From: a virus
DNA: 29,960 nucleotides
Reading direction: 5' to 3' (one strand)
Virus record (IMG/VR): IMGVR_UViG_3300044799_000064
Span: 1-29,960 of that record
Numbering within the stretch: position 1 is the stretch's first letter; each line of letters starts with the position of its first letter. The translations under genes and the position numbers were made by a program. Below, piece after piece: positions 4,554 to 29,960 of the stretch. The notes under the pieces are model-generated. The model had not been told where the DNA came from, did not search any database, and was given only the letters and a program-made list of their open reading frames with translations.

Positions 4554-5297
4554 TTGTCACGAAAGCGAAGGAATATCAAGATCAAAGTTCTCAGTCCTAG
4601 AGATAGATTTAGACCCCTTGTTGCTGGTATCTCTGGAACTCATTACCAATCAACTGCTTGTACGATCTCTGCATTCTTTAGAAAAGATGATAAGATTTTA
4701 ATAGCATCAAATATGCATTGCTTCGGAAGAGAGAATAATGCTCAGAAAGGAGATCCTATATTGCAACCAAGTCCTTATGATTTAGGAACTCTTGATGATA
4801 AGATTGGAACTTTTCTATTTGGAGTGGAACTTAATTTTATATCATTTAAATGTCCATATAGAAACTTCTTCCTGAGAAAGATTTGGAGACCCAAGGAATT
4901 ATATAACTTAGTTGACATCTCATTTGCAGAATTGACAATAGACTTTCTTCCCGAAGTGTTGAATCTTGGAACAATAAAGGGAAAGAGAGAAATCTCAGTT
5001 GGAGAAATAGTTAGAAAATGTGGTAGAACATCAGAAGTTACAACTGGAGAAGTTATCTCAACATCATGGAGTGGACAAGTTCAATATTCAAGAGGAATGG
5101 GTCTATTCACAGATTGTATCTTAATTCAAGGGAATAAGTTCTCTCAACCTGGAGATTCAGGAAGTCCTATTTTAGATGAAGATAATAACCTTATTGGAGT
5201 TCTCTTTGCTGGTTCTGATAACTATACCATAGTCTGTAAGATAGGAAACATAGAGAGAATAGCAGGAGTAACTTTAATAACAGGAGTTGTTTCTTAA
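4554..5297 (+). CDS. Trypsin-like serine protease (PA clan, S1-like)
   Basis: The 247-residue protein has a complete chymotrypsin-fold triad: H55 in ASNMHCFG, D121 in LVDISFAEL and S202 in QPGDSGSPIL. The stretch RPLVAGISG, ACTISAFF, ASNMHC, GDPILQP and DDKIGTF follows the layout of the phage/bacterial family written RPA.GGVS, GTLG, SNNHV, GDPILQPG, D.IG. There is no signal peptide; the N-terminus is basic (SRKRRNIKIK), so it probably acts in the cell or in the virion. The start is TTG with an AGGAGAT site seven bases upstream. It follows its likely partner at 4321 and precedes the glycosyltransferases. A second, unrelated protease at 26192 handles head maturation, so this one probably has another target. 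Confidence 0.88.
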   Translation: MSRKRRNIKIKVLSPRDRFRPLVAGISGTHYQSTACTISAFFRKDDKILIASNMHCFGRENNAQKGDPILQPSPYDLGTLDDKIGTFLFGVELNFISFKCPYRNFFLRKIWRPKELYNLVDISFAELTIDFLPEVLNLGTIKGKREISVGEIVRKCGRTSEVTTGEVISTSWSGQVQYSRGMGLFTDCILIQGNKFSQPGDSGSPILDEDNNLIGVLFAGSDNYTIVCKIGNIERIAGVTLITGVVS

Positions 5298-7274
5298 ATG
5301 CGAATTCTACTGCATTCTCCATTACATCCAAGTTACTGGATTTATCTAATGGAATGCATGCCAGAACATGAATGGTTCATAGAACCTAATGATGATTTTG
5401 AGGAAGGACAAACTCCAAGAAATCATATCAAGTATACTGTGGTTCCAAAAGATACAAAGATGAAATTTGATGCACAGATAATTCCTATCTGGTATCTAGA
5501 TAAGTTATATCAAATTCTTGAAGACTTTCCTATTCCTCCTGTCTTCCTCGATATTGCTGGATATCCTCTTCCCAAACTTGAAGTTAAATATCCTCTAATC
5601 TCTGGAACCACTTATCATTCAAATAATCAATATTCTAATATTCGATATTCCTATGTTCCTCCAAGTAAGATATTATGGGATAAAGAATGGATAGGAGATA
5701 TTGATTCTGTTCTTATTCCTGCTCAAAGATATCTTGATCCTGAATATAGTCATTCCAAGATGGCTCAGATTATTCCAATTCTAAAAGAAGCAGGTATTAA
5801 CATGGATATTGTAACAGGAAAGAGGATAATGCCTTTCAATGAATGGCAAGATAAATTTATCCATAATCGAGTACTCTTGGATTGTTCTCAGAAATATGCA
5901 TCTTTCATAGTTGAAGAAGCAATGATGATTGGTATGCCTATTGTCTGTTTGGATCAATATGAATCTTCTATTATGATTAGAGACAAGATTGATGGATTTA
6001 CAAAATGGACTGATAGTGAATTAATAGATCTGTTAAGACGATTCATAACAAATAAAGAATTCGCTGATGAATGGTCTTTGAAGTCAAAAGCACGAGGGAA
6101 AGAGATCTTAGATCCTGAAATGACAAGAAGAATTTTTAATCAAGCAATTTCTGATTCAATACAGTTATTCAATTCATCCAAAGATCCTTTCAAGAGGGAA
6201 ACAGAACATCCAACTGATCTAACCTTTATCTTCTGGGAATTGAAGAATAGAGAGAAGAATCTGGATTGGGGTTATCCTGTACGAGGATATCCAAGATCAG
6301 ATTATCTAATATCTGCTTTCAATAGATTAGGATTGAATATTCAGCCAATTGAATTCTGTGATTATGCCTCCGTTAAATTGGAACCTCAAATGGATAAACC
6401 ATTTCCATATAGAACCTTAGGTGCAAATATTAAATCAGATCATGTTCTCTTAGAATGGGATGGAATAACAGCAAAGAGAGATTATCCCAGTATCTTTGAC
6501 TGGAATAAGAAATTGTACATTATTCCACATCATGAAGGTAGAGTGGCTGGATATTATGCTACTCCAGAAGATGAAAGGATAATGAGAGCAAAGATTACCA
6601 AATATAGTACTAAAGTAATCTTTGAATTACAAACTCTTAGGAATCTTTGGAAAGAGTTTGAATGTGATAAATTTGTATTACTCTATCCTCCTGTTAGAAC
6701 AGGAATAAAGATTGATAAGAATAAGGCAAGAGAGATTCTTGGGATCAAAACAAAGTATGTCCTTATTGCCTGGGGAGAATATACTTCAGGAAAACATTAT
6801 GGTGATATCTTATTATGGCTCAAAGAATGGGGAGATACTTCTCTATTATTCTGTGGTTCTGGAGAACGTACTGAGAAGAAACATTTACAAGATAAAGTAA
6901 TAGAACTTGGATTACAAGATAGAGTATTTTTCTCTGAACATGGAATTTCAGATGAGGATGCTGATCTATGGTTCTCTGCAAGTGATCTTTGTTCTTGTCC
7001 AAGAACCTATTTTGGTACAGCAACTCCTGTCTATGTAATAGGACAAGGAAAGGTTATTGTTCTTCCTAAGAATACTTCATGGTTTGAAACTGGTAGTTAT
7101 GAAGAATTAGAGAAGATATCAGGAGTAGTTGTGTCTGAGAATGTTAAAAGAACAACAAGGATCTTGCTTATAGATGAAAGAAAGAGAAAGGATTTAGAGA
7201 AGAAATCTATTAAATATGCAAATGAACATTCATTTGATAATTATGCTAGAGAAATTAAGAAGCTGATGAAATGA
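5298..7274 (+). CDS. Tandem GT-B glycosyltransferase (two-domain)
   Basis: This 658-residue protein looks like two glycosyltransferase units in one chain. Residues 1 to about 300 (starting RILLHSPLHPS; later EEAMMIGMPIVC and a DGF motif) match the product of the gene at 8128 and resemble the donor-binding half of GT4-type enzymes. Residues about 310-658 form a second GT-B-like unit with LLFCGSGERTEKK, LQDRVFFSEHG, and a DLWFSASDLCSCPRTYFGTATPVYVIGQGK stretch typical of a sugar-nucleotide site. It probably adds sugars to virion or host-surface glycans or proteins. The donor and acceptor cannot be told. No membrane segment is obvious, so it is likely cytosolic. It starts directly after the protease stop with AGGAG upstream and overlaps the next gene by ATGA. 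Confidence 0.75.
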   Translation: MRILLHSPLHPSYWIYLMECMPEHEWFIEPNDDFEEGQTPRNHIKYTVVPKDTKMKFDAQIIPIWYLDKLYQILEDFPIPPVFLDIAGYPLPKLEVKYPLISGTTYHSNNQYSNIRYSYVPPSKILWDKEWIGDIDSVLIPAQRYLDPEYSHSKMAQIIPILKEAGINMDIVTGKRIMPFNEWQDKFIHNRVLLDCSQKYASFIVEEAMMIGMPIVCLDQYESSIMIRDKIDGFTKWTDSELIDLLRRFITNKEFADEWSLKSKARGKEILDPEMTRRIFNQAISDSIQLFNSSKDPFKRETEHPTDLTFIFWELKNREKNLDWGYPVRGYPRSDYLISAFNRLGLNIQPIEFCDYASVKLEPQMDKPFPYRTLGANIKSDHVLLEWDGITAKRDYPSIFDWNKKLYIIPHHEGRVAGYYATPEDERIMRAKITKYSTKVIFELQTLRNLWKEFECDKFVLLYPPVRTGIKIDKNKAREILGIKTKYVLIAWGEYTSGKHYGDILLWLKEWGDTSLLFCGSGERTEKKHLQDKVIELGLQDRVFFSEHGISDEDADLWFSASDLCSCPRTYFGTATPVYVIGQGKVIVLPKNTSWFETGSYEELEKISGVVVSENVKRTTRILLIDERKRKDLEKKSIKYANEHSFDNYAREIKKLMK

Positions 7275-8131
7275 AGATAACTTATATCAGTCATGGAACT
7301 CATTGGGAAGCATCCATAGAACCTGTCTTAGAGACATTGAAAGAAAGAGGACATGAGATAATTAGATGTGAACCCAAGATTAGAAATATAGAAGTAATTC
7401 CTAATGATATTGACATTGTCCTTCTTACTTCCAATGAGGATACTCCTGTGATTTGGAAGCAAACAAAACAGTTCTTTATCCCTCATGGTATAGGTGATGA
7501 AAGATGGAATCCAATAATGGATAATTATGACAAAATTCTATTAGCAGGAAAGAAACCCTGGTATTCTGATTCTAAGAATTCGAAGATTGTTGGATGGGCT
7601 AAATCTGATGTTTTATTTAATCCCAAGAAAGACAAAGAAGATTATGTTAAGAATCTGATGAGCAATCTTCCATATGATCAATCTGTTTTGTGCATCCCTT
7701 ATCCAGATGATATTGGTCCCAAACTCCATTTCTTAGTAGATTATTTCAATTCAAGAAAGATTAATGTTATTGCTTCCTATCCAGATTATTATCTTGAAGC
7801 CAAACAATATTTCAAGAACTATAATCATGTCATTATTTCAAAGATTTCAAATCTTTATTACTTTGTTCCTTATATTAAAATTTTAGTCTGTTCAGGTTTT
7901 ACATCTGTTGGAAGAGAGTTCTATATTACTCAGATACCAACAATGCACATTGGAAAAGGATTTGAAGAGAGTATCAATCTATCCAGTCCTGAGAAACAAT
8001 TTGATTCAATATTCTCTAAGATATGGGAAGATCCTAAATTGTATCTACAACCAGAATCTATAACAAAGCAATTTATTGAGATCAATGATGGTAAAACAGT
8101 AGAACGAATCATAAGGGAGATAGAACCATGA
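7271..8131 (+). CDS. Glycosyltransferase or glycerophosphotransferase-like protein (GT-B fold)
   Basis: The 286-residue protein opens with MKITYISHGTHW and has FFIPHGIGDERWN followed by DKILLAGKKPW. This resembles the HG-x-G region of GT-B enzymes of the CDP-glycerol glycerophosphotransferase and UDP-GlcNAc 2-epimerase type. Later, VCSGFTSVGREFYITQIPTMHIG matches the C-terminal donor-binding part, where a glycine/serine loop and a conserved acid usually sit. It overlaps both neighbours by four bases, so it is translationally coupled to the two glycosyltransferases around it and probably acts in the same pathway. The exact donor is unknown. Confidence 0.6.
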   Translation: MKITYISHGTHWEASIEPVLETLKERGHEIIRCEPKIRNIEVIPNDIDIVLLTSNEDTPVIWKQTKQFFIPHGIGDERWNPIMDNYDKILLAGKKPWYSDSKNSKIVGWAKSDVLFNPKKDKEDYVKNLMSNLPYDQSVLCIPYPDDIGPKLHFLVDYFNSRKINVIASYPDYYLEAKQYFKNYNHVIISKISNLYYFVPYIKILVCSGFTSVGREFYITQIPTMHIGKGFEESINLSSPEKQFDSIFSKIWEDPKLYLQPESITKQFIEINDGKTVERIIREIEP

Positions 8132-9051
8132 CTGAAAGATTACGAATATTAATCCATGGACCTATTCATCCTTCATGGTATTATGTTTGTGATAAGTTTC
8201 CAAAATATGATTGGACAATTTCTTATCCTCCTAGTCTAGATCCATGCACTGTTCCTTTTCCTGAAGAACTTTCTAAATTCAATGTATTAACTGATGAGGA
8301 AGTTCTGAAAGAAGATTATGATGTTCAGATTATCGTTCAACATTTAGCTGAAGAAAAGATGGATGATATCCTTGCTAAATTTAATTATCCTATTGTTTGG
8401 GTAACTTATTGGCATGTTCATACTTTCGCTATTGATAAGAAGTACTATCCTCTAATCTACACCTGCAAGACCTCATATCCAGTGAACTATCCAGGAAAGA
8501 AATACTTTACATATTTTATGCCCACAAAACATTTTTGGAAGAAAGATTGGATAGGAGATAAGAAAGTTGTTTTCATTCCATCACAGCAATATTCTCATTC
8601 ATTCTATACAACTGATATTTTACATGTTCTTCAAAAGAATAAAATCCCTATTATCTGTCCAGATACAAATAGACAGACATCTTTTGAGGAATGGAAAGAT
8701 CTTTTTGTTCATTCTAGAGTCTTCTTAGAAACACATCCTAAGAATTCATCTACTGCTTTGACAGAAGCAATGAATATAGGAATGCCAGTAATAGTTAGAA
8801 AAATAAATGATATGGGAGAAATTATAAGAAATGGTGTTGATGGATTCTCATTTGATGGTGAGATGGAACTTCCTAAATTAATACAACCATTTCTAGAAGA
8901 TCAGAACTTTGCTAGATCATTTGGTGAAAAAGCCAAGACACGAATAAATCAGGTATCATCAATAATAAATGAGATCAATGTCTTCAATCAAGCATTCCAA
9001 GATGCTTTGATCTTAGGAAAACAAAAAGGAAAAATAACGAATATTATCTAA
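8128..9051 (+). CDS. GT-B glycosyltransferase, paralogue of the N-terminal half of the gene at 5298
   Basis: The 307-residue protein is clearly related to residues 1-300 of the 5298 product. Both begin R-I-L-[LI]-H-[SG]-P-[LI]-H-P-S, both have KKDWIGD or DKEWIGD, an FxEWxDxFxHxRVxL block, and TEAMNIGMPVIV or EEAMMIGMPIVC followed by DGF. The duplication is therefore ancient but unmistakable. This copy has no second GT unit. It is probably another sugar transferase of the surface-glycan cassette. ATG overlaps the previous stop. Its own stop at 9049-9051 overlaps the stop of the convergent minus-strand gene (shared CTAA), so plus and minus operons meet with no spacer. Confidence 0.72.
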   Translation: MTERLRILIHGPIHPSWYYVCDKFPKYDWTISYPPSLDPCTVPFPEELSKFNVLTDEEVLKEDYDVQIIVQHLAEEKMDDILAKFNYPIVWVTYWHVHTFAIDKKYYPLIYTCKTSYPVNYPGKKYFTYFMPTKHFWKKDWIGDKKVVFIPSQQYSHSFYTTDILHVLQKNKIPIICPDTNRQTSFEEWKDLFVHSRVFLETHPKNSSTALTEAMNIGMPVIVRKINDMGEIIRNGVDGFSFDGEMELPKLIQPFLEDQNFARSFGEKAKTRINQVSSIINEINVFNQAFQDALILGKQKGKITNII

Positions 9052-18661: not shown

Positions 18662-21600
18662 ATGCGATTAACTACTATCTCTTCACTAACTGGAAGTATT
18701 GGTGGAGGATTACAAACTAGACTTATCAGAACTTCTGATACTGTTCTTCATGTTTTTACTAGTTTTGCCGATAATAAAATTGTTCATTATTATAGTATCA
18801 ACAATGGAAAGACTTTTCTTTCTGAGAATCTATCAATTTATTCAAATACATTCTCACTTACAAAAGATTCCAATGATACTCTTCATCTTGTTTATCTAGG
18901 ATTAGATGGTAAACTTTATTATTCTAAAGGAACAAAAAATGGATATACTTTTTCATGGTCTGTTGCATCTATTGTTGATACTAGTCCTTCAGGAATCTAT
19001 TCTAGTTCTTTAACAATTCTACTTGATAATTATTCTAATATCCATATTTTTCTAGGGAGTAATAGTTTTGATTGGTATAGATCACCATCTGGTCTTTCTT
19101 GGACAAAAACAAGACTTATCTCATTACTCAACAATTCTAAGATCTCTGGAAGTGCTATTGTCGATCCAGATAACAATTTATTAGTAGTTTTCTTGGCTCA
19201 TTTTGATACTACGGGAGCAGGATATGCTAAGAGAGTTTATTCAGTTAAGATTTCTTATCCTTCATGGACTGTAGGGACTGTCAATTTGATTGAATCTAGT
19301 CCATTAAATATTGGAGATCCAAGTATGTGTGGAGCATTGGATCTTGAAGTTACTCCTGATGGAAAAATTGTTTATATTTATTTTTCTCAAGAAGGAGTTA
19401 TGCCAGTTCCTACTCATATCTATTTTAGAAAGTCTAGTAATCCATATGATATCTTAAATTGGGGAACAGTTAAGGATCTTAGTTCCTATACTTGTGGTAC
19501 TAGAAGTCAACCTGTTCTTAGTATTCTTTCTTCTCAACATTTTAGAATTTACCAAGAAGCAACCAATGGGAAAATATATTGTCGAGAAAGTTTAGATTCT
19601 GGAGTAGTCTGGACAGAAACAGAACTAATTGATGTTGGATCTCCAGCATCTATTGGTATTTCAATTGGTCAAGGAGATTGGGGCTATCTAGATCTAATGG
19701 TCTTGGGATCTTTACTTTATCTTTATCTTGGAAGAAATCCATATGCTCAATTTGGACTTGTTTATGAAGAAGATGAGACTGGAGATGCTCCTCTTGTTGA
19801 GATCTTTCCAGATACCATTAAGTATTCTGATAGATTTGATGATTGGACGATTTCTAATTGTCTAAGATATGAAGATCTAATTGAATTCAAGGCTACTGGA
19901 GCCCAGGCAACATTAGATTATGACTGGAATGTATCTGACTGGACATGGATTCACACAAGAGTCAAGTTTGATCAAGAAGGAATAGGAGGATCTCTAAAGT
20001 TAGAAATTAACATAGGAGGAAGTTGGTATGAACTTGAAACCTACACAACTTCAGGAAGATTCTCTCATGTCTGTACTCCATATGGAGATGGTATTAGATT
20101 AACAAGATCTGGAAACTCTAGCATCCAAGTTGATTACTGTATCTTATCAGAAAAAGAAAAGAGAACTCTTTCAGAGACAATAAGTGGTCTGAATGTCAAA
20201 CTTCAGACTTTGAATAAAGGAGTCAACTCTAGTGAGATAACTGTCTTCAATGAGAACTTCCAATATTCAACTGATAATCCAATGGACTTTGAAGTATCAG
20301 ATTATATGCTTGTTTGGATGGGTAAGTTAGGAACAGGTATTAGAAATAAGATGTTTGCTGGAAGAATCTCCAAAGTAGATTACACTGGAGCAGGGTATGG
20401 TACTCAGAAGATAATTATAGATGGACAAGGATTCTCTGCTGAATTGATAAAACCTCCAGTGATTCTATATAAACGATATGCGAATATTAATGCTGAAACT
20501 ATCTTGGATGAATATCTTGCAGGTCTTCTTCAAGTAAAGAAAAGTCAGTTCCCTGATGAGTGGTTCAATGGTGTTATAGTTACTAACTTCACTAAGAAAT
20601 TTACTGGTCAGAATCCATTGGGAGTATTCCAAGAGATCTTGGAGAATTCTTATGACTCAGATGATGAACGTGGTATGGAAGCAACAGAGATTCCTCCTGG
20701 TGTTCTTCTAGGTCATGAAAAAGATTCTACTGAATGGAAAGTAAAGACAACTCTGTATCCTAATAAATATGCAATTGAAGATGATCTAACTCCATTATAT
20801 AATGCAATTGATATCTTTGGAGATAGTTCTAAGATGTATCCATCAGATGGAGACTCTTGGACAGAAGGATCTTTAGTTGGATGGGAAGGACTCTATGGTA
20901 GTGTTCTAAGTCTAGTTACAACTCCTATTCCTAAAGCAGGAATAAAATCAGTCAAAGTTCTTGTTGCTCCCCAACCAATTGATTGGTATGGATGGAATCA
21001 TCCTGATGGATGGTGTCACTATGTTGTTCTATTTGGACCAGGATCATTAGAAGTAACCTTCCAATTCTCATGTCCTTCAGGTCAAGCAATTCTCTTCAAT
21101 AGAGCTGGATGTTATCAAGAACAAGAAGGTCATGCAGAAATATATTGGAAATTTGGAGAATCTGGTAGTTATACAAGACTCACTATTCCTGAAAATGAGA
21201 TTGCAGATGAATATGAAGAACTCTACACTAAAGTAGATCCAAATGGTTATGAGACTGGTTCAGTAAATACTGATCTCTTTGTGAAATGGAAACTTACTGG
21301 TATGGGATTATTCCAACAAGGATGTTTTAATAATTTCACAATCTATTACCGTTATAGTCCTGCTGGAATCCAAGAGAAGTTCTCTAGTCGATTCACTCTT
21401 CCAATTGCTGAATATCCAGATGGTCTAGACCTTGAACTTCCTGATTCTCCAACTAAATTAGAATTTGTCCTTGGATCAGTAATTCAAGAACCAAGTTCAG
21501 GAGAAGGATCTAAACCTACGATATCTATCAAATTAGTCTGTAAGGATGGAAGTTCAAAGACTTATAGAGGAGAATTCTCAGGAATTGGAGCAGGAGATTG

Positions 21601-22123
21601 GGCAACATTCTCTATCGATATTGGTCCCGATGCTAATAACAAAGGATGGTCTGCAACTCCAGTGGGAAAAGTAGAAAGTATTGAATTTGAATTCACAATC
21701 ACTACAGATTTCTTCCATGCCACAGATTATCTATTAATAGATTGGTTACACTTTGGATCTGCTAAGTTCTTTGGAACTTGGGAAGATACTACTTCAATAG
21801 CAAAATATGGAAAGAGATGGTCTGAACCAGTGGAGGATACAACTCTGTTATCAGATAATCAATGTGAATTAAAAGCAAAGACTTTGGTACTAATGAATAA
21901 AGATCCTGTTCTAACATTCTCTCCAATTGAGATAGATGGATCAGTTATCTTTGTTCCTTCATTTCTAATTAATGTCCAAGTTCCAAATGAGAACTTTAAT
22001 CAATGGTTGTCTATTTTGGAGATTGAACATAAGTTGGAAGGTACAGAATGGTTGACATCTCTAACAATAGGAGCAGAGCCAGTAACAATAGATTATGTTA
22101 TAAGATCATTGAGAGGAAAGTAG
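18662..22123 (+). CDS. Tail hub/baseplate protein with N-terminal beta-propeller
   Basis: In this 1153-residue protein, residues about 20-370 form a series of sialidase/BNR-like blades (DTVLHVFTSFADNKIVHYYS, DTLHLVYLGLDGKLYYSKG, KIYCRESLDSGVVWTETEL). A beta-sandwich follows (385-495). Residues 500-700 (TISGLNVKLQTLNKGVNSSEI, MFAGRISKVDY, KIIIDGQGFSAEL, INAETILDEYLAGLL) resemble gp27/hub proteins. A stretch of beta-rich, ligand-binding-like modules (about 720-1060) is inserted before the last hub-like part (CELKAKTLVLMNKDPV...LTIGAEPVTIDY). The catalytic residues of true sialidases are not apparent, so the propeller may only bind glycans. The gene follows the tape measure, the usual place for tail-tip genes. 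Confidence 0.72.
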   Translation: MRLTTISSLTGSIGGGLQTRLIRTSDTVLHVFTSFADNKIVHYYSINNGKTFLSENLSIYSNTFSLTKDSNDTLHLVYLGLDGKLYYSKGTKNGYTFSWSVASIVDTSPSGIYSSSLTILLDNYSNIHIFLGSNSFDWYRSPSGLSWTKTRLISLLNNSKISGSAIVDPDNNLLVVFLAHFDTTGAGYAKRVYSVKISYPSWTVGTVNLIESSPLNIGDPSMCGALDLEVTPDGKIVYIYFSQEGVMPVPTHIYFRKSSNPYDILNWGTVKDLSSYTCGTRSQPVLSILSSQHFRIYQEATNGKIYCRESLDSGVVWTETELIDVGSPASIGISIGQGDWGYLDLMVLGSLLYLYLGRNPYAQFGLVYEEDETGDAPLVEIFPDTIKYSDRFDDWTISNCLRYEDLIEFKATGAQATLDYDWNVSDWTWIHTRVKFDQEGIGGSLKLEINIGGSWYELETYTTSGRFSHVCTPYGDGIRLTRSGNSSIQVDYCILSEKEKRTLSETISGLNVKLQTLNKGVNSSEITVFNENFQYSTDNPMDFEVSDYMLVWMGKLGTGIRNKMFAGRISKVDYTGAGYGTQKIIIDGQGFSAELIKPPVILYKRYANINAETILDEYLAGLLQVKKSQFPDEWFNGVIVTNFTKKFTGQNPLGVFQEILENSYDSDDERGMEATEIPPGVLLGHEKDSTEWKVKTTLYPNKYAIEDDLTPLYNAIDIFGDSSKMYPSDGDSWTEGSLVGWEGLYGSVLSLVTTPIPKAGIKSVKVLVAPQPIDWYGWNHPDGWCHYVVLFGPGSLEVTFQFSCPSGQAILFNRAGCYQEQEGHAEIYWKFGESGSYTRLTIPENEIADEYEELYTKVDPNGYETGSVNTDLFVKWKLTGMGLFQQGCFNNFTIYYRYSPAGIQEKFSSRFTLPIAEYPDGLDLELPDSPTKLEFVLGSVIQEPSSGEGSKPTISIKLVCKDGSSKTYRGEFSGIGAGDWATFSIDIGPDANNKGWSATPVGKVESIEFEFTITTDFFHATDYLLIDWLHFGSAKFFGTWEDTTSIAKYGKRWSEPVEDTTLLSDNQCELKAKTLVLMNKDPVLTFSPIEIDGSVIFVPSFLINVQVPNENFNQWLSILEIEHKLEGTEWLTSLTIGAEPVTIDYVIRSLRGK

Positions 22124-22124
22124 A

Positions 22125-25100
22125 ATGGAAGAAGATACTCAGAAGACTTTTGTTCTAGACTTTGAGAAGATGGAAGTTAAGGAATTGGAAAGTAAACACC
22201 TTCTTTCTCATCTTAATAAGAATCTAGAATTACACAATCTAGTATTACAAGAACTTGTGAGAAGGAAACTTAGTCATATTTATCTAGATACTATGGATAG
22301 AGAACAAGAGTGGTTGATTCAAGATTATAAGACTTATGATCCAGAAAAAATGAGTGATCAAGTTCTGTTAGATGACCATAGAATAGTATCTGCTTGGCTT
22401 GTTACTCTGAAGACAGGTAAACGATTTGAGTCTCCTCAATTTAAAGATCTATCCCTAGAAGAACAACTCAAAGTAGTCTCAGATCTAGAAGATAAGATTC
22501 ATGAAGAGATGAAGAGACGAGGTTTTAAAGTAGATACAGCAGTTGATCCAAGAGATATTACTCCCAAGTTCCTAGAAGGAATCTCAGATAGTCAAGTCAA
22601 AGATATTGACTTTGTTCTACATAAATTGAAGATTAGTGAGAGTGTCATAGATGCTCACATATTTGTTTGGAATGAAATGATTAAGCGAGGAATCAAACAT
22701 ACAATTGATGATGAACTAACTAAGAAGAGTGCATTGCAAGTTATAGAATATCCAACTCCACAGGGACTAGCATTTGTAGAACTTTGGCATTGGGTTACAA
22801 TAGAAGGAAGACATTTCCAGATGCCAGATCCAGGTGATACAGGTGAAGCTCCAATAACTCCATCTGAAAGAGGACCAAGAGGACCAAGAATGGAAACTCC
22901 TCCACATATTGAGATTCCTAAACATCGTCCTGGTCATGAAGTAGTTCCTCCTGGAGAATCTACAGTATGGCAAGAGAGACCAATAGTTAATCCATCTATT
23001 AGAAAGAAACCTCCTAGAAAGAAGAAACCTAATCTTCCATTTGAAATAGGATCTACAGAGGAAAGGGATCAAGGGATGATCCCTACTGAGATTACATTAG
23101 AGAATGTTCTGGATGCATTTCCAGATGAGATTCCCAATGAATTGTTCCCTCCATATGTCTTTATTATAGGTCATATTGCTAATGAAGGGAAGATCCCAAT
23201 ATCTGAATTCCATGATATTGATATCCTAGTCAGAGGAACTTATGATCCAAGAGTAGAGAAGATGATTCTTGATCAGATAGAAGATCCTGAGATCAAGAAG
23301 AGACTTCATATCACTTTTGATCCTAAAGGTCCAAGCGTTGGTTGGGCATATCCATTATATGATTTAACTTATAAGAAGAATCCTAATCCAAGAAAGATGA
23401 GTCCTTGGGAACTTAGTGCTGATATTGAACTATTGAAATATCATCTAAACCAGAAACCTGCTAAGTTCTTAGAGATCTGGAATGTAGATGAATTGTGGAC
23501 TGAATGGGGTTCTAAGCATATTCAGAATACTGTCTATGTCCAGAAGAAGTTTGATGGAATGTACTTCCAGATTCATAGGAAAGGAAATGAAGTTAGATTC
23601 TTTACTGAAGAAAGTGCTCGGGATAGACAGGATGTATTCAAGAAATCAGTTAAAGAACTTCTAGAAGGTATCAGAGGAAGTTATATAATTCATACAGAGA
23701 TGGTGGAATACAAAGATGGAAAATCTCTTAGAAGAGAAGATATGATTCCATGGATTACTTCTACTGTCAAAGAATTAGATGATGAAGGAATAGTATTCCA
23801 TATTCATGATATTACTTATCTCAATAATGAGATCTTAGCAGATAAAGGATATACTGAACGATATGATGCTCTAAAGAAATTGATAGTTGAAGGGATGAAG
23901 CATTTCAAATTAGTTCCTTCCACTATAGTTCATTCTGAGAAAGAATTCAAGGATGCAGTATTCAAGAAAAGAACAGAACCTTTCTCTGAAGGAGCAGTAG
24001 TCAAAGATGATAAAGGAACATATTCTTACAGATGTTCAGGTCCCAAGTCTTGTAGAAGTACAGAGATGGCTAAGATAAAGAACTTGAAAGAAATAGATGT
24101 TATGATAATGAAAAGAGTTCCTAAGATGTCAGGTGGACAACCTCTAGATCAGTACACTTATATCTGTGGAATTCAGATTCCATATGAGAGATCTAAGGAT
24201 TTTAAGAATGTAGAAAATATTCATGGTACTTGTCTTGCTCAGATAGGAACATCTTATTCTACAGCATTGAAATTGGAGATAGGAGAAATCTTAGCAATTA
24301 GACCTGTTCAGGTTATAAGTTATATAGATCCATCTGATAAATTGATTAGTCTTGCATGGATGTTTCCAACTGTAGAAAGTAAAGGGTCAGAAGTGGATGA
24401 CTATGAGAAGTTCAAGAAACTAGAAGCAATTGGAACTTCATGGAGAGAAGGATTGAATGATGGTGATCTAGTCAAGACCTCTTACTTTGCTAAATGTCCA
24501 TATGCTTATGATAAAATTCTCTGTCCATTGAAGGAAAGATTCTGTAGACCTGAATATTGGTTAGAAGAGAATGACCTTAGATTCCCAATTAAATGTAAGT
24601 ATGCTGAATGCTTCAGGTGTCTTTATGCTAAACCTTATTATTATGGTCTCCAAGATACAACTTACCCAACAAAGGATTCTGAACGAAGATATGTCATGCA
24701 ATCTCACATCAGAGGAAAGAGTCAACATACTGATTGTAGATTTGAATGGAATGATCATCTTGTTGGATTTGAAGTAGTAGGTGGAAGTACTGAAGAACCT
24801 GTTACTCCAGATAAATGGGAGATCAATAAAGGATTCAGAGCAGAGTGGAAAGCATTACAACCTAAAGATTGGCTCAAAGTTCATGGTATAGTTCCTCCAG
24901 GTGGAGTAGGTGCAGGAGTAGAAGTAGAAGGAGAGTTCATTATTGTATCTCAGGGACACTTCAAAGAAGGAGTTCAGAAACCATACTTCAAAGAATTCTT
25001 TATCAAATCAGATAAGACTATTGGACCTTTGAAAGAAGGAGACTATATACGATTAGTCTTGAGAGGATTAAGATTACCATTACTAGATCCAGAGACAAAG

Positions 25101-26159
25101 AAAGAGATTCCAGGCAAGTTCGAGATAGTCTGGAGATTCATGATTCCATCAACTCAAGTACCATATACTATAGATTCAAGAGCAATCAAGGAAGGATTCA
25201 AACCTCCAAAGGGAGTCATACCTTTCCCTGAAGAATGGACTAAGACTAAGTTCCCAGAAGACTATAAGAAATGGGAAGAATATATGAAAGAGAAAATGTC
25301 TCTAAGTTCTGGATTTGTATTACATGAAGTAAGTTGGATGGGTCCAGTTCATGTTAGAGGTCTTCCTGAGAGAGAATACTATCTTAGAATAAATGATGGA
25401 AAGAGTAGACCACTAAGTTTCTTACTCACAGATAATCCATTATATAAGTTACCATCAGGTGCAATGTCTGAAGGACGAGTAGATTCTAAATGGTTTGATT
25501 ATGTAGGTAAACTTGGTTCCAATTCACCTTACAATCCTAATAAGGAATTAGAGGCTGAGATGACTATACTTGATAAAGGAGATCTGAACATTACTAAAGA
25601 TCTTGGAGATAGAGGTGAAGAGATCTTCACATTAGATCTTCATGGAAAGATATTGAAAGGACAAATGAAATTGGTCCAAGAAGAGAAAGGAATGGAGACT
25701 TATATATTTGAGAAGGGGTCACAGGATGACCACTTATCTTCATATCCATTTGTATTCCAACGTCATTATGGAGATCAGATAAAGACTCATTTTGATCTTA
25801 GATGGAAACTTAGCAATAATCATAAACAAGAATTGAATATCTACAAAGATCCTACAAGAGCAAAGGAAGGAGAGAAGATCTTTGCTAGATTCAAAGATAT
25901 AACTGAGGAACCTCAAGTTCTTGAATCATGGATGGTAATTGAAGGAAATCATCTTCTTAGAAAAGTAGGTCCATTAACAACTTATATTGACTGCATGGAT
26001 TCAGGAACTTTGAATGTAATAGAATTCTCTGAAGACTTTATTTCCCTAGAAATTAGTGGAAAGTTTCTTAAAGGTTTCTTTGTAGCCAAGAAAGATCCAG
26101 ATACTCATGAGTGGTCTTTCAGTAGAAGTAAGATAGCAACTCCAAAAGAACCTTTATAA
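22125..26159 (+). CDS. Giant nucleotidyltransferase-ATP ligase-double LigD-phosphoesterase-like protein
   Basis: The 1344-residue protein shows, in order: a helical N-terminus (1-210); a Pro/basic linker (225-310); a nucleotidyltransferase-like domain around 345-420 with FIIGHIANEG and HD364-I-D366-ILV; an ATP-dependent ligase domain with motif I K475-F-D-G, motif IV E622GAVVK627 and motif V MAK650IK652; a cysteine cluster from C791 to about 830, probably zinc-binding; and two LigD 3'-phosphoesterase-like units with HxDxR signatures, H868-T-D870-C-R872 (preceded by H861) and H1222-F-D1224-L-R1226 (preceded by H1214). Bacterial LigD joins phosphoesterase, ligase and polymerase modules; this fusion has a different order and two phosphoesterases. 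It lies between tail and head genes. End repair or genome sealing is likely but unproven. GAGAGG lies eight bases before ATG 22125. Confidence 0.8.
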   Translation: MEEDTQKTFVLDFEKMEVKELESKHLLSHLNKNLELHNLVLQELVRRKLSHIYLDTMDREQEWLIQDYKTYDPEKMSDQVLLDDHRIVSAWLVTLKTGKRFESPQFKDLSLEEQLKVVSDLEDKIHEEMKRRGFKVDTAVDPRDITPKFLEGISDSQVKDIDFVLHKLKISESVIDAHIFVWNEMIKRGIKHTIDDELTKKSALQVIEYPTPQGLAFVELWHWVTIEGRHFQMPDPGDTGEAPITPSERGPRGPRMETPPHIEIPKHRPGHEVVPPGESTVWQERPIVNPSIRKKPPRKKKPNLPFEIGSTEERDQGMIPTEITLENVLDAFPDEIPNELFPPYVFIIGHIANEGKIPISEFHDIDILVRGTYDPRVEKMILDQIEDPEIKKRLHITFDPKGPSVGWAYPLYDLTYKKNPNPRKMSPWELSADIELLKYHLNQKPAKFLEIWNVDELWTEWGSKHIQNTVYVQKKFDGMYFQIHRKGNEVRFFTEESARDRQDVFKKSVKELLEGIRGSYIIHTEMVEYKDGKSLRREDMIPWITSTVKELDDEGIVFHIHDITYLNNEILADKGYTERYDALKKLIVEGMKHFKLVPSTIVHSEKEFKDAVFKKRTEPFSEGAVVKDDKGTYSYRCSGPKSCRSTEMAKIKNLKEIDVMIMKRVPKMSGGQPLDQYTYICGIQIPYERSKDFKNVENIHGTCLAQIGTSYSTALKLEIGEILAIRPVQVISYIDPSDKLISLAWMFPTVESKGSEVDDYEKFKKLEAIGTSWREGLNDGDLVKTSYFAKCPYAYDKILCPLKERFCRPEYWLEENDLRFPIKCKYAECFRCLYAKPYYYGLQDTTYPTKDSERRYVMQSHIRGKSQHTDCRFEWNDHLVGFEVVGGSTEEPVTPDKWEINKGFRAEWKALQPKDWLKVHGIVPPGGVGAGVEVEGEFIIVSQGHFKEGVQKPYFKEFFIKSDKTIGPLKEGDYIRLVLRGLRLPLLDPETKKEIPGKFEIVWRFMIPSTQVPYTIDSRAIKEGFKPPKGVIPFPEEWTKTKFPEDYKKWEEYMKEKMSLSSGFVLHEVSWMGPVHVRGLPEREYYLRINDGKSRPLSFLLTDNPLYKLPSGAMSEGRVDSKWFDYVGKLGSNSPYNPNKELEAEMTILDKGDLNITKDLGDRGEEIFTLDLHGKILKGQMKLVQEEKGMETYIFEKGSQDDHLSSYPFVFQRHYGDQIKTHFDLRWKLSNNHKQELNIYKDPTRAKEGEKIFARFKDITEEPQVLESWMVIEGNHLLRKVGPLTTYIDCMDSGTLNVIEFSEDFISLEISGKFLKGFFVAKKDPDTHEWSFSRSKIATPKEPL

Positions 26160-26191: not shown

Positions 26192-27379
26192 ATGATAGAT
26201 GTACATTCTGCTGATTTTGAAAGAGTCTTTCTGTCCAGTCCATTGATTATAGAGAAGACAGGTGGAGATATCTTTATCTCTGGTGTTGCTCTATCAGTAG
26301 GAACATGGAAAGATGTGTTCTATACTCCAGAAGAACTTAAGAAAGTAGCAGATAAATTGAAAGGGATTCCTGTTAAGATTAATCATCAGCAAGATACTCA
26401 TGTTGGAGAAGTAGTCTCTTCAGAATGGAATGATTTAGTCAAAGCAATTCTCTTCAGAGCTAAGATAGATAAAGACTTTCCAATTGCTGAATGGGATGCA
26501 GTGTCCTGTGGTACATGGATGAAAAAGATAGAAGAGAATGGTAGAACTGTAGGACATGATTTCAATATTGATGAATTGAGTCTAACGAATACTCCAGCAG
26601 ATCCTCTTGCTATTATAATAACCAAGGAACAATTGAGTTCCGCTATTAAACCTGATCAAGGTGTAAACAAAATGAGTGAAAAGAAAGAAGAGAATCCTAA
26701 ACTATTTGCGATTGTGGAACTTAGCAATATGGATGAAGTAGAAGAATTAAAAAAGAAATATCCATATGTCCATCCTTACTATGGTTATGCTAATGTAAAA
26801 CCATTCTATTATAAGGATGAAGCAAGTGGAGAATACTATCCATACTATCCATATTACAAAGACAAGTATCCAAACTATCCATACAAAGGATATCCATACT
26901 ATCCAAAGGAGAAAGTAGCAGATATTATATGTCCAATAGAAGGAGACAAGTTTGCAACCTTCGAGGAATTCCAGAAACATTGGGCAGATAAACATGTAGA
27001 GAAATATGGTGAATATGCTCCTAAAGAACAGAAGACTGCTGAAATCCTATCTGCTGAACCTGCAAAGGAAGTTCCTAAGGAAGATCCAGTTAAGAAAGAG
27101 AATGAAGACTTGAAGAAAGAAGTAGAGAATCTCAAGAAATCAGTTCAATTGTCTTTAGATGCAACAAAGACTGCTGAAGCATCAAAAGAACAAGCAGTCA
27201 AAGATGCAGTCCAAGAGACTAAGACTAAGATCTTAACTGATTTTGAAGATGTTCATTCAAGAGCTTCTGAATGTGTCTCCCAATGGAAAGGTGGAGGTCC
27301 AAAGCGATTAGTTGAGGAAATCCATTCAACAATAAACAAGTATGATCCTAAATATAAATTGAAAAAGAAAGAACAATAA
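26192..27379 (+). CDS. Prohead protease fused to scaffold-like tail
   Basis: The 395-residue protein has a head-maturation protease domain (about 1-160). H65 in IPVKINHQQ and S130 in DELSLTNTPADP are the likely His and Ser of the HK97/XkdF-type catalytic set. Residues 195-245 contain a Tyr/Pro-rich stretch (EYYPYYPYYKDKYPNYPY). It is followed by a degenerate C2H2-like finger, C247-P-I-E-G...EFQKHWADKH, whose second cysteine is missing. The rest is a coiled coil (KKENEDLKKEVENLKKSVQ) typical of scaffolds. It would guide capsid assembly and then cut the scaffold away. AGTGATGAG precedes ATG 26192; a promoter lies just upstream. Confidence 0.8.
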   Translation: MIDVHSADFERVFLSSPLIIEKTGGDIFISGVALSVGTWKDVFYTPEELKKVADKLKGIPVKINHQQDTHVGEVVSSEWNDLVKAILFRAKIDKDFPIAEWDAVSCGTWMKKIEENGRTVGHDFNIDELSLTNTPADPLAIIITKEQLSSAIKPDQGVNKMSEKKEENPKLFAIVELSNMDEVEELKKKYPYVHPYYGYANVKPFYYKDEASGEYYPYYPYYKDKYPNYPYKGYPYYPKEKVADIICPIEGDKFATFEEFQKHWADKHVEKYGEYAPKEQKTAEILSAEPAKEVPKEDPVKKENEDLKKEVENLKKSVQLSLDATKTAEASKEQAVKDAVQETKTKILTDFEDVHSRASECVSQWKGGGPKRLVEEIHSTINKYDPKYKLKKKEQ

Positions 27380-27432: not shown

Positions 27433-28350
27433 ATGGAAAAGAAAGAGTATGAAACCTTGAGCAAGAAATTCTCAAAGAAAGAAGCAGATATTGATGACTT
27501 CCTTGCTAGACTGGAAAAGAACCCAGTGGTAAGAAAGTACAGAGAAAATCTGTCTATTACTCTTCCTGAAGCTGCAACTGCAATCATGGATAAAGTCATT
27601 GAAGCTGCTCAACCTGGTCTCATTGGTAGAGACTTGATGCCTATAGTAAATGTGTCTCAAGTAACTACTAAAGTTCCACTTGCTGCTGTTAGTACAGCAG
27701 AGGAAGGAGCTAGACCTTTGAGTTTTGCTGCAACAGATGGTGGGGAAACCCAGACTTATACCTCTGTCACAGTAGATAGAGAAATTCATGATAAAGCAAT
27801 TTGGGATCCATCAATCCTAAGTGAGATGCCTTTTGATCTGGTACAAAGAGAAGTAGCAGAAGTAGGCAGAAGTTGCAAGCAGAAAGAGACTCAAGTTGTA
27901 ATTGCAGCCTTGGATGCTGTTGCTGCTGGCGATCTGGCTAGTGGAGCAGAGATTACATTGGGTGCAACTTTGACTTGGGCTAACCTAGTATCAATGGTTA
28001 CTGCTGTCATGAAGGAGAATTTCTCACCTAAGATAATTGCCATGAACCCTGCTGAATTGGCTGATTTGATGAAACTGGATCAGTTCACATCAAGTCTATA
28101 TGCTGGTGTGGTAGGTGGATGGTTCAGTGAAGTTCTCAAAGTGAAGATTTTAGTATCTTCATTGATAACTGCTGGAACTGTCTATTGTCTAGATACTGAT
28201 GTATCTGGTAACCTCTTTGTGCTTCAAGATCTATCAGTTGATTCTTGGACTAAAGGAGATATCAGACAAGCAGGTATCATAGCATATGAGTTCATTAAGG
28301 CAAGTTGTCTAAGGAAGAAAGGTATTGCTCGTGGTAAGAAACCCACATAG
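27433..28350 (+). CDS. Major capsid protein (HK97 fold)
   Basis: The 305-residue protein has the layout of HK97-type capsid subunits. A charged helical N-terminus (1-40) lies where the family often has a removable delta domain. TKVPLAAVSTAEEGARPL is followed by TYTSVTVDREIHDKAIWDPS (E-loop/P-domain region). The A-domain has KIIAMNPAELADLMKLDQF, VLVSS-like strands (KVKILVSSLI) and TVYCLDTDVSGNLFVL. It forms the icosahedral shell. GTGAT lies five bases before ATG 27433. It is flanked on both sides by RNA hairpins and follows the protease/scaffold gene as expected. Its place far from the portal is unusual. Confidence 0.85.
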   Translation: MEKKEYETLSKKFSKKEADIDDFLARLEKNPVVRKYRENLSITLPEAATAIMDKVIEAAQPGLIGRDLMPIVNVSQVTTKVPLAAVSTAEEGARPLSFAATDGGETQTYTSVTVDREIHDKAIWDPSILSEMPFDLVQREVAEVGRSCKQKETQVVIAALDAVAAGDLASGAEITLGATLTWANLVSMVTAVMKENFSPKIIAMNPAELADLMKLDQFTSSLYAGVVGGWFSEVLKVKILVSSLITAGTVYCLDTDVSGNLFVLQDLSVDSWTKGDIRQAGIIAYEFIKASCLRKKGIARGKKPT

Positions 28351-29370: not shown

Positions 29371-29541
29371 TTGCCAAAGAAAGATGAAGAACTTGGTCTT
29401 GAAGATGAATGTGGAATAGTTCTTATTGGACCTGATGGCAAAGTCAAAGAGACTAGAAAGAGAAAGCACAAATCCTCATTTTTTAATCATATATTAAAGA
29501 ACTTAATAGAGAGTATAATAGGTAAGGAAGAAGAATGCTAG
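29371..29541 (+). CDS. Small GPDGK-motif protein before the fibre
   Basis: I choose TTG 29371, eight bases after GGAGG (29358-29362); ATG 29365 is only two bases from that site and TTG 29356 overlaps it. This gives 56 residues: PKKDEELGLEDECG, then IVLIGPDGKVKETRKRK and a helical end (HILKNLIESIIGKEEEC). The IGPDGKVKE segment matches YGPDGKLKD of the preceding gene, so it looks like a truncated copy of that domain. Its TAG overlaps the fibre ATG at 29535, so the two are translationally coupled. Confidence 0.55.
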   Translation: MPKKDEELGLEDECGIVLIGPDGKVKETRKRKHKSSFFNHILKNLIESIIGKEEEC

Positions 29542-29960
29542 GATCTGATATTTATCTAAGATTGCATTTGAATGAATCCAGTGGTACAAATGTTCCTGAT
29601 ACAAGTGGTAATGCTAGAAATGGTACTTGTGTCAAGATGGAAGATGCTGATTGGGCAGCAGGTAAACTCAACAATTGTCTAGTATTCAACATGGATGCTG
29701 GAGAGACAAATGAATATGTTAATCTTGGTGCTATTGGTGGATTTGAATATAATCAACCATTCTCAATAGAATGTTGGTATATCTGCAATTCAGATGCTTC
29801 TGAATATACAATTATATCAAAGAAAGAGACATCAGGTAATTGGAGAGGTTGGGATCTTAAGATCTTCTATGGTTATCCTTATATTCATTATCAATCTACA
29901 ACGACATTAGGAATTCAGAAGAGAACGACATCAAAATATGTTGATGCAAACTGGCATCAT
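29535..29960 (+). CDS. LamG-domain tail fibre/adhesin, 5' part (continues at base 2)
   Basis: ATG 29535 lies inside the end of the previous gene (AATGCTAG) behind AAGGAAGAAG. It opens MLGSDIYLRLHLNESSGTNV with PDTSGNARNG, the standard beginning of phage LamG-3 domains (L.L.L.E..GT...D.SG....G), and NQPFSIECWY follows. Codons 1-99 lie before 29832; from 29834 the bases are the duplicated end, and codon 101 is bases 2-4 of the window. The whole gene is 2640 nt. It is not truncated in nature; the break is only where the circle was opened. Confidence 0.9.
   Translation, partial: MLGSDIYLRLHLNESSGTNVPDTSGNARNGTCVKMEDADWAAGKLNNCLVFNMDAGETNEYVNLGAIGGFEYNQPFSIECWYICNSDASEYTIISKKETSGNWRGWDLKIFYGYPYIHYQSTTTLGIQKRTTSKYVDANWHH
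29834..29960. repeat. Terminal overlap, copy 2
   Basis: Exact copy of bases 1-127. It should be counted once in a circular map, which then has 29,833 bp. Confidence 0.95.

Follow-up and report, generated by a model that had tools for sequence, protein, structure and literature searches.

An archaeal-virus protein joining a DNA ligase to LigD-type phosphoesterases beside the head genes: a candidate Ku-free DNA-end repair enzyme

The DNA analysed here (the window) is a 29960-base virus record from IMG/VR. It has a 127-base direct terminal repeat (positions 1-127 and 29834-29960), so that it very likely represents a complete genome of ~29.8 kb that is circular or circularly permuted. One gene, LamG/tail-fibre-like by eye, crosses the genome junction (29535-29960, continuing at 2-2341). 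A trypsin-like serine protease homologue with weak Pfam matches (4554-5297) sits between the terminase gene and two or three genes that appear glycosyltransferase-like by eye (5298-9051). On the plus strand, an uninterrupted open reading frame (ORF) at positions 22125-26159, stop codon included, encodes a protein of 1344 aa with the layout NT-ligase-OB-Zn-PE1-PE2-PE3, in which NT is a nucleotidyltransferase-like domain and PE a phosphoesterase domain. The ORF begins 1 base past a large late gene (18662-22123, plus strand, 1153 aa) that lies after the tail genes and has no family match, and it stops 32 bases short of the head maturation protease gene directly downstream (26192-27379, plus strand, weak match), which is followed by the major capsid protein gene (27433-28350, plus strand). 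Domain borders were mapped by iterated HMMs, all domains being read on the plus strand, and residue conservation was counted over a family ~20-55% identical to the window protein. The N-terminal part comprises a helical domain conserved across the family (residues 10-206, positions 22152-22742) and a disordered Pro/Lys-rich linker (residues 208-308, positions 22746-23048; pLDDT <50).

The ATP-dependent ligase adenylation core (residues 455-662, positions 23487-24110) matched PF01068 (DNA_ligase_A_M) in Pfam at 7.6e-17 over residues 465-652 and a PHROG ATP-ligase at 2.5e-16. Seven residues, K475, G478, E525, R537, E622, G623, and K650, were invariant in 31/31 sequences, and the features by which an adenylation domain is recognized, the motif I lysine plus motifs III, IV, and V, were all present. 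The family ligase profile matched archaeal Lig1 (4eq5) at 1.6e-30 and the LigD ligase (1vs0) at 1.3e-9, and comparison of the AlphaFold model with human Lig1 gave a Z score of 26.0 with an rmsd of 2.9 over 310 residues. Since the structural match to Lig1 reaches residue 774, an OB domain is present (residues 663 to about 750-770, positions 24111-24434); no ligase motif VI was recognisable in it by eye. The window protein had no Pfam match to PF04675 (the Lig1 DNA-binding domain) or PF04679. Among the relatives described below, PF01068 was found in 31/33, and several of them also matched RNA_ligase weakly.

The C-terminal part contains three PE folds in tandem, PE1 (residues 847-1054, positions 24663-25286), PE-M, the second (residues 1063-1193, positions 25311-25703), and PE3 (residues 1204-1338, positions 25734-26138), whose profiles detect one another. 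The first-pass annotation had proposed two phosphoesterase-like domains, and the two with an HxDxR motif proved real (HTDCR at 868-872 with H861 in PE1, HFDLR at 1222-1226 with H1214 in PE3); the count did not hold, as a PE fold without HxDxR lies between them. The Pfam family LigD_N matched PE1 of the window at 3.4e-5, by itself under the curated cut-off, and was found in 24/46 relatives with a best value of 1.2e-9. In searches of the PDB, the PE3 profile matched 3p4h (9.6e-10) and 3p43 (1.5e-9) over nearly the full length of both, and the PE1 profile gave a weaker match (0.0028). The AlphaFold model of the C-terminal region had a pLDDT of at least 90 at 361/565 residues, and all six of its Foldseek matches at E <=0.001 were LigD PEs; the best structural alignment was that of PE-M with the archaeal LigD PE 3p43 (Z score of 16.1). 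FGF chains, which the PE-M profile matched at an E value of 0.011, were judged to be chance matches.

In PE1, H861, H868, and D870 were kept in 42/42 sequences and R872 in 41/42, and in PE3, H1214, H1222, D1224, and R1226 were kept in 20/20, the H-H-D residues of both domains thus being invariant against a mean column identity of 30-47%. In LigD, His42, His48, and Asp50 are manganese ligands, while Arg52, His84, and Tyr88 hold the phosphate, and P. aeruginosa LigD mutants of His84 or Tyr88 are inactive, each residue being essential (PMC8656161). PE1 and PE3 carry the equivalents of the three metal ligands and of Arg52. At the His84 position, PE1 mostly has Q (23 of 42 sequences) or E (17 of 42), and at the Tyr88 position it has W in 42/42; PE3 likewise has W at the Tyr88 position and has no His at the His84 position. 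These replacements indicate that the phosphate site differs and that the chemistry of the viral PEs may differ from that of LigD. In PE-M the active site has been lost. The second PE of the two-PE relatives L031, L044, and L047 still has HWDLR, suggesting that PE-M decayed in the three-PE lineage. Overall, the ligase and LigD-type PE assignments of the first-pass annotation are supported by profile matches, fold, and conservation of catalytic residues, with neither a mismatch of fold nor a general loss of K475 or the HxDxR residues across close homologues.

The NT domain (residues 320-415, positions 23082-23369) has an hG[GS]...DhD motif in which G349, D364, and D366 are invariant in 35/35 aligned sequences. 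The motifs reported earlier for this protein, HDIDILV (363-369) in the NT domain and KFDG (K475), EGAVVK (622-627), and MAKIK (648-652) in the ligase, were all confirmed, and the Pfam, PHROG, and LigD_N matches together with conservation in the family place the motif set well beyond chance. By its sequence, the NT domain is likely a member of the Pol-beta nucleotidyltransferase family: its profile gave weak PDB matches (E values of 0.06-1.5) that were mostly to the Pol-beta superfamily, including terminal transferase (TdT) and Pol mu, and hhalign gave 84% over 23 columns with archaeal nucleotidyltransferases. The fold searches of the larger model returned no match for NT, the lists being filled by ligase matches, and the third carboxylate varies, with D in just 10/29 sequences, making catalytic activity less certain. 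The nucleotidyltransferase call is plausible on its motif and profile. Between the OB domain and PE1 lies a zinc cluster (residues 787-843, positions 24483-24653), for which about seven cysteines had been reported; the cluster, a C4 type, is present, but it has six (791, 800, 807, 824, 829, and 832), four of which (C791, C800, C824, and C832) are kept in relatives.

Scans of viral contigs with the window protein alone, or with the ANMV-1 ligase alone, found no relatives. ANMV-1, a virus of ANME archaea, had been found in the phages collection to encode a homologue of the window protein, and a profile built from these two sequences was needed to recover the family. This profile found 57 loci besides ANMV-1, 49 viral and 8 in metagenome-assembled genomes (MAGs), with L008 and L052 being one contig. 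The MAG loci were from Archaeoglobales, Thermoprotei, Methanosarcinales, Methanophagales, other archaea, one Omnitrophota, and one other bacterium. The Candidatus Omnitrophota locus (L054) points either to a host range beyond archaea or to mis-binning. At 1e-10, the PE1 profile matched 8 of 791 sampled archaeal species genomes, three already-known carriers among them, a rarity more in keeping with a mobile or viral gene than with a housekeeping one. In the phages collection, ANMV-1 was the sole true relative; the extra matches obtained with L043 as the query were mostly to its XkdF protease domain, and one was to a weakly matching ordinary phage ligase.

In many relatives the chain is divided into two adjacent genes between the zinc cluster and PE1, and six loci have the permuted order NT-PE-PE-LIG-OB (L033, L034, L041, L042, L048, and L050, the ligase part being unseen in L048 and cut off in L050). 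The parts of the module stay together, yet they are rearranged. Five relatives (L015, L021, L022, L025, and L053) carry a metallo-beta-lactamase domain at the N terminus (Lactamase_B_2, up to 1.6e-17), possibly an end-trimming nuclease in the same chain, and after it a domain that is ASCH-like by eye. Inteins, recognised in several cases by matches to Hint, Intein_splicing, or LAGLIDADG and in the rest by eye, were found in L012, L014, L020, L022, L024, and L025 and probably in L010, L015, and L021. They interrupt ligase motif I (L024), motif V (L022 and L025), NT (L014), and conserved sites of PE1 (L012 and L020).

The position of the ORF directly ahead of the head protease gene, as first described, is correct and is conserved. 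The order of module, protease, and capsid genes on the same strand was observed in 24 distinct relatives, sometimes with other genes interposed, and a portal gene lies directly upstream of the module in ANMV-1 and just upstream in L047 and L040. As the portal and terminase families vary among the lineages, the association of the module with the head genes has persisted while the head modules diverged. Two relatives have protease fusions, L043 with an XkdF protease as a continuation of the chain (Pfam, 7.4e-14) and L044 with a PE domain joined to a protease homologue. This link to the capsid suggests that the protein acts at the procapsid or after entry.

That the window protein is an enzyme combining a ligase with PEs is close to certain, and a function in DNA-end repair is probable. 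As the best explanation, with a probability of roughly 0.6, we propose that it is a multidomain enzyme of archaeal head-tail viruses that heals and seals DNA ends without Ku, is tied to the capsid, and is most likely packaged. Viral DNA, rather than other molecules, would be the substrate. By analogy with LigD, the two intact PEs would clean 3'-phosphates and 3'-blocked or 3'-ribonucleotide ends to restore the 3'-OH, with the NT domain possibly adding nucleotides and the Lig1-type core doing the sealing. The enzyme would be made with the procapsid and associate with it, and, most likely as a packaged protein, it would mend nicks or genome ends at about the time of packaging or entry. The first-pass annotation had seen no Ku gene, and Ku was likewise found in 0/20 related records, many of which are perhaps incomplete, with a positive control in B. 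subtilis. The XkdF fusion and the head-module position would make packaging and post-entry end sealing likelier. Late genes do not always encode virion proteins, and carriage within the virion, taken by itself, falls somewhat short of even odds. Depurination and strand breaks driven by heat give blocked 3' ends, so that a virus living in a hot environment would be well served by these activities, and mycobacteriophages, which circularise via Ku and host LigD, provide a precedent. More tentatively, a Lig1-type ligase, a Pol-beta nucleotidyltransferase, and LigD-type PEs may form, in archaeal and partly thermophilic viruses, a machine for Ku-free end joining and nick repair that is carried in the virion, mends or circularises the genome upon entry, and evolved independently of LigD, a version we would hold to be slightly more doubtful than not.

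The closest alternative is that the enzyme acts in assembly only, mending nicks, gaps, and blocked 3' ends before packaging at the procapsid or portal, without being carried into the cell. The placement of the gene between portal or tail genes and the protease and capsid genes fits this, as does fusion to the head protease, and packaging motors are sensitive to nicks. Nothing specific counts against it and timing alone separates it from the best explanation; we consider it unlikely, though clearly ahead of the remaining alternatives. A quite improbable one is that the protein repairs RNA, restoring tRNAs or other RNAs cleaved by host defence nucleases. Phage RNA ligases are accompanied by Pol-beta nucleotidyltransferases and phosphoesterases (PMC7824862), and the weak RNA_ligase matches of several relatives would agree, but DNA ligases are matched far better (PF01068 in 31/33; Lig1 Z score of 26), an OB domain is present, and the head module would be an odd site for an early function. 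Slightly less credible still is an ordinary replication or repair ligase that lies among the late genes by chance. No other ligase gene was found in 18/20 records searched, many being fragments, as would be expected of such a ligase; against it are the synteny across lineages with differing portal and terminase families, the protease fusions, and the unmatched Lig1 DNA-binding domain. Moreover, the genomes of L060 and L061 have a second, canonical Lig1-type ligase with the DNA-binding domain (PF04675 and PF04679), which argues against reading the window-type protein as just the replicative ligase. A structural protein without catalytic activity, built of ligase and PE folds, to which the lost active site of PE-M would correspond, can hardly be credited given the invariance of K475 and of H-H-D in two PEs at such low mean column identity.

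The preferred reading, a Ku-free end-healing enzyme tied to the capsid, invites comparison with Ku-LigD, the known case of multi-enzyme end repair on a single chain. Like bacterial LigD, the viral protein has a 3'-phosphoesterase, an ATP ligase, and a nucleotide-adding domain on one polypeptide and retains the PE metal residues H...HxDxR. In place of the AEP primase-polymerase of LigD, however, it has a Pol-beta-like NT, and no AEP or primase-type polymerase was matched in Pfam at E values up to 1. Its ligase is closest to Lig1, His84 and Tyr88 are replaced in its PEs, its order is NT-LIG-PE with two or three PE copies, and it is encoded in a head module with no Ku partner in the records searched. 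It is therefore LigD-like in working yet distinct from LigD, and the differences in polymerase, Ku, ligase type, PE phosphate site, and order suggest an assembly independent of LigD. Uncultivated archaeal viruses would thus have a LigD-like toolset that is put together differently and linked to the block of capsid genes. Were the protein active, it would offer a compact repair enzyme that needs no Ku, possibly heat-stable in some members, and would point to protection or mending of the genome by some viruses as a step of the virion cycle.

The C-terminal domains are closest in fold and sequence to the archaeal stand-alone LigD PEs (Korarchaeum and Methanosarcina, 3p43 and 3p4h; Methanocella, 5dmp), but those are single-domain cellular proteins, whereas the viral PEs are in tandem and fused to, or in an operon with, the ligase. 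The adenylation and OB core is shared with archaeal and eukaryotic DNA ligase I (Z scores up to 26), whose DNA-binding domain is replaced in the viral protein by the NT and helical domains, PF04675 and PF04679 being undetected. Polyvalent phage proteins (Iyer et al. 2017, PMC5512222) are similarly large and multidomain and are often fused to head proteins or encoded alongside them; LigD and XkdF go unmentioned in the searched text of that paper. In the open-access literature searched for an ANMV-1 ligase, an archaeal-virus LigD, or an XkdF-ligase, the fusion protein was undescribed. The ANMV-1 "ATP-dependent DNA ligase" (AJP62006), annotated as a ligase only, is a homologue with the layout NT-LIG-OB-PE-PE directly past the portal gene; it differs in having 866 aa and two PEs, without the N-terminal domain or zinc cluster. 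Another ANMV-1 protein, AJP62005 (L002, 1913-3193), is annotated as a MutT-like phage hydrolase and matches the portal family PF06381 at 3.2e-22.
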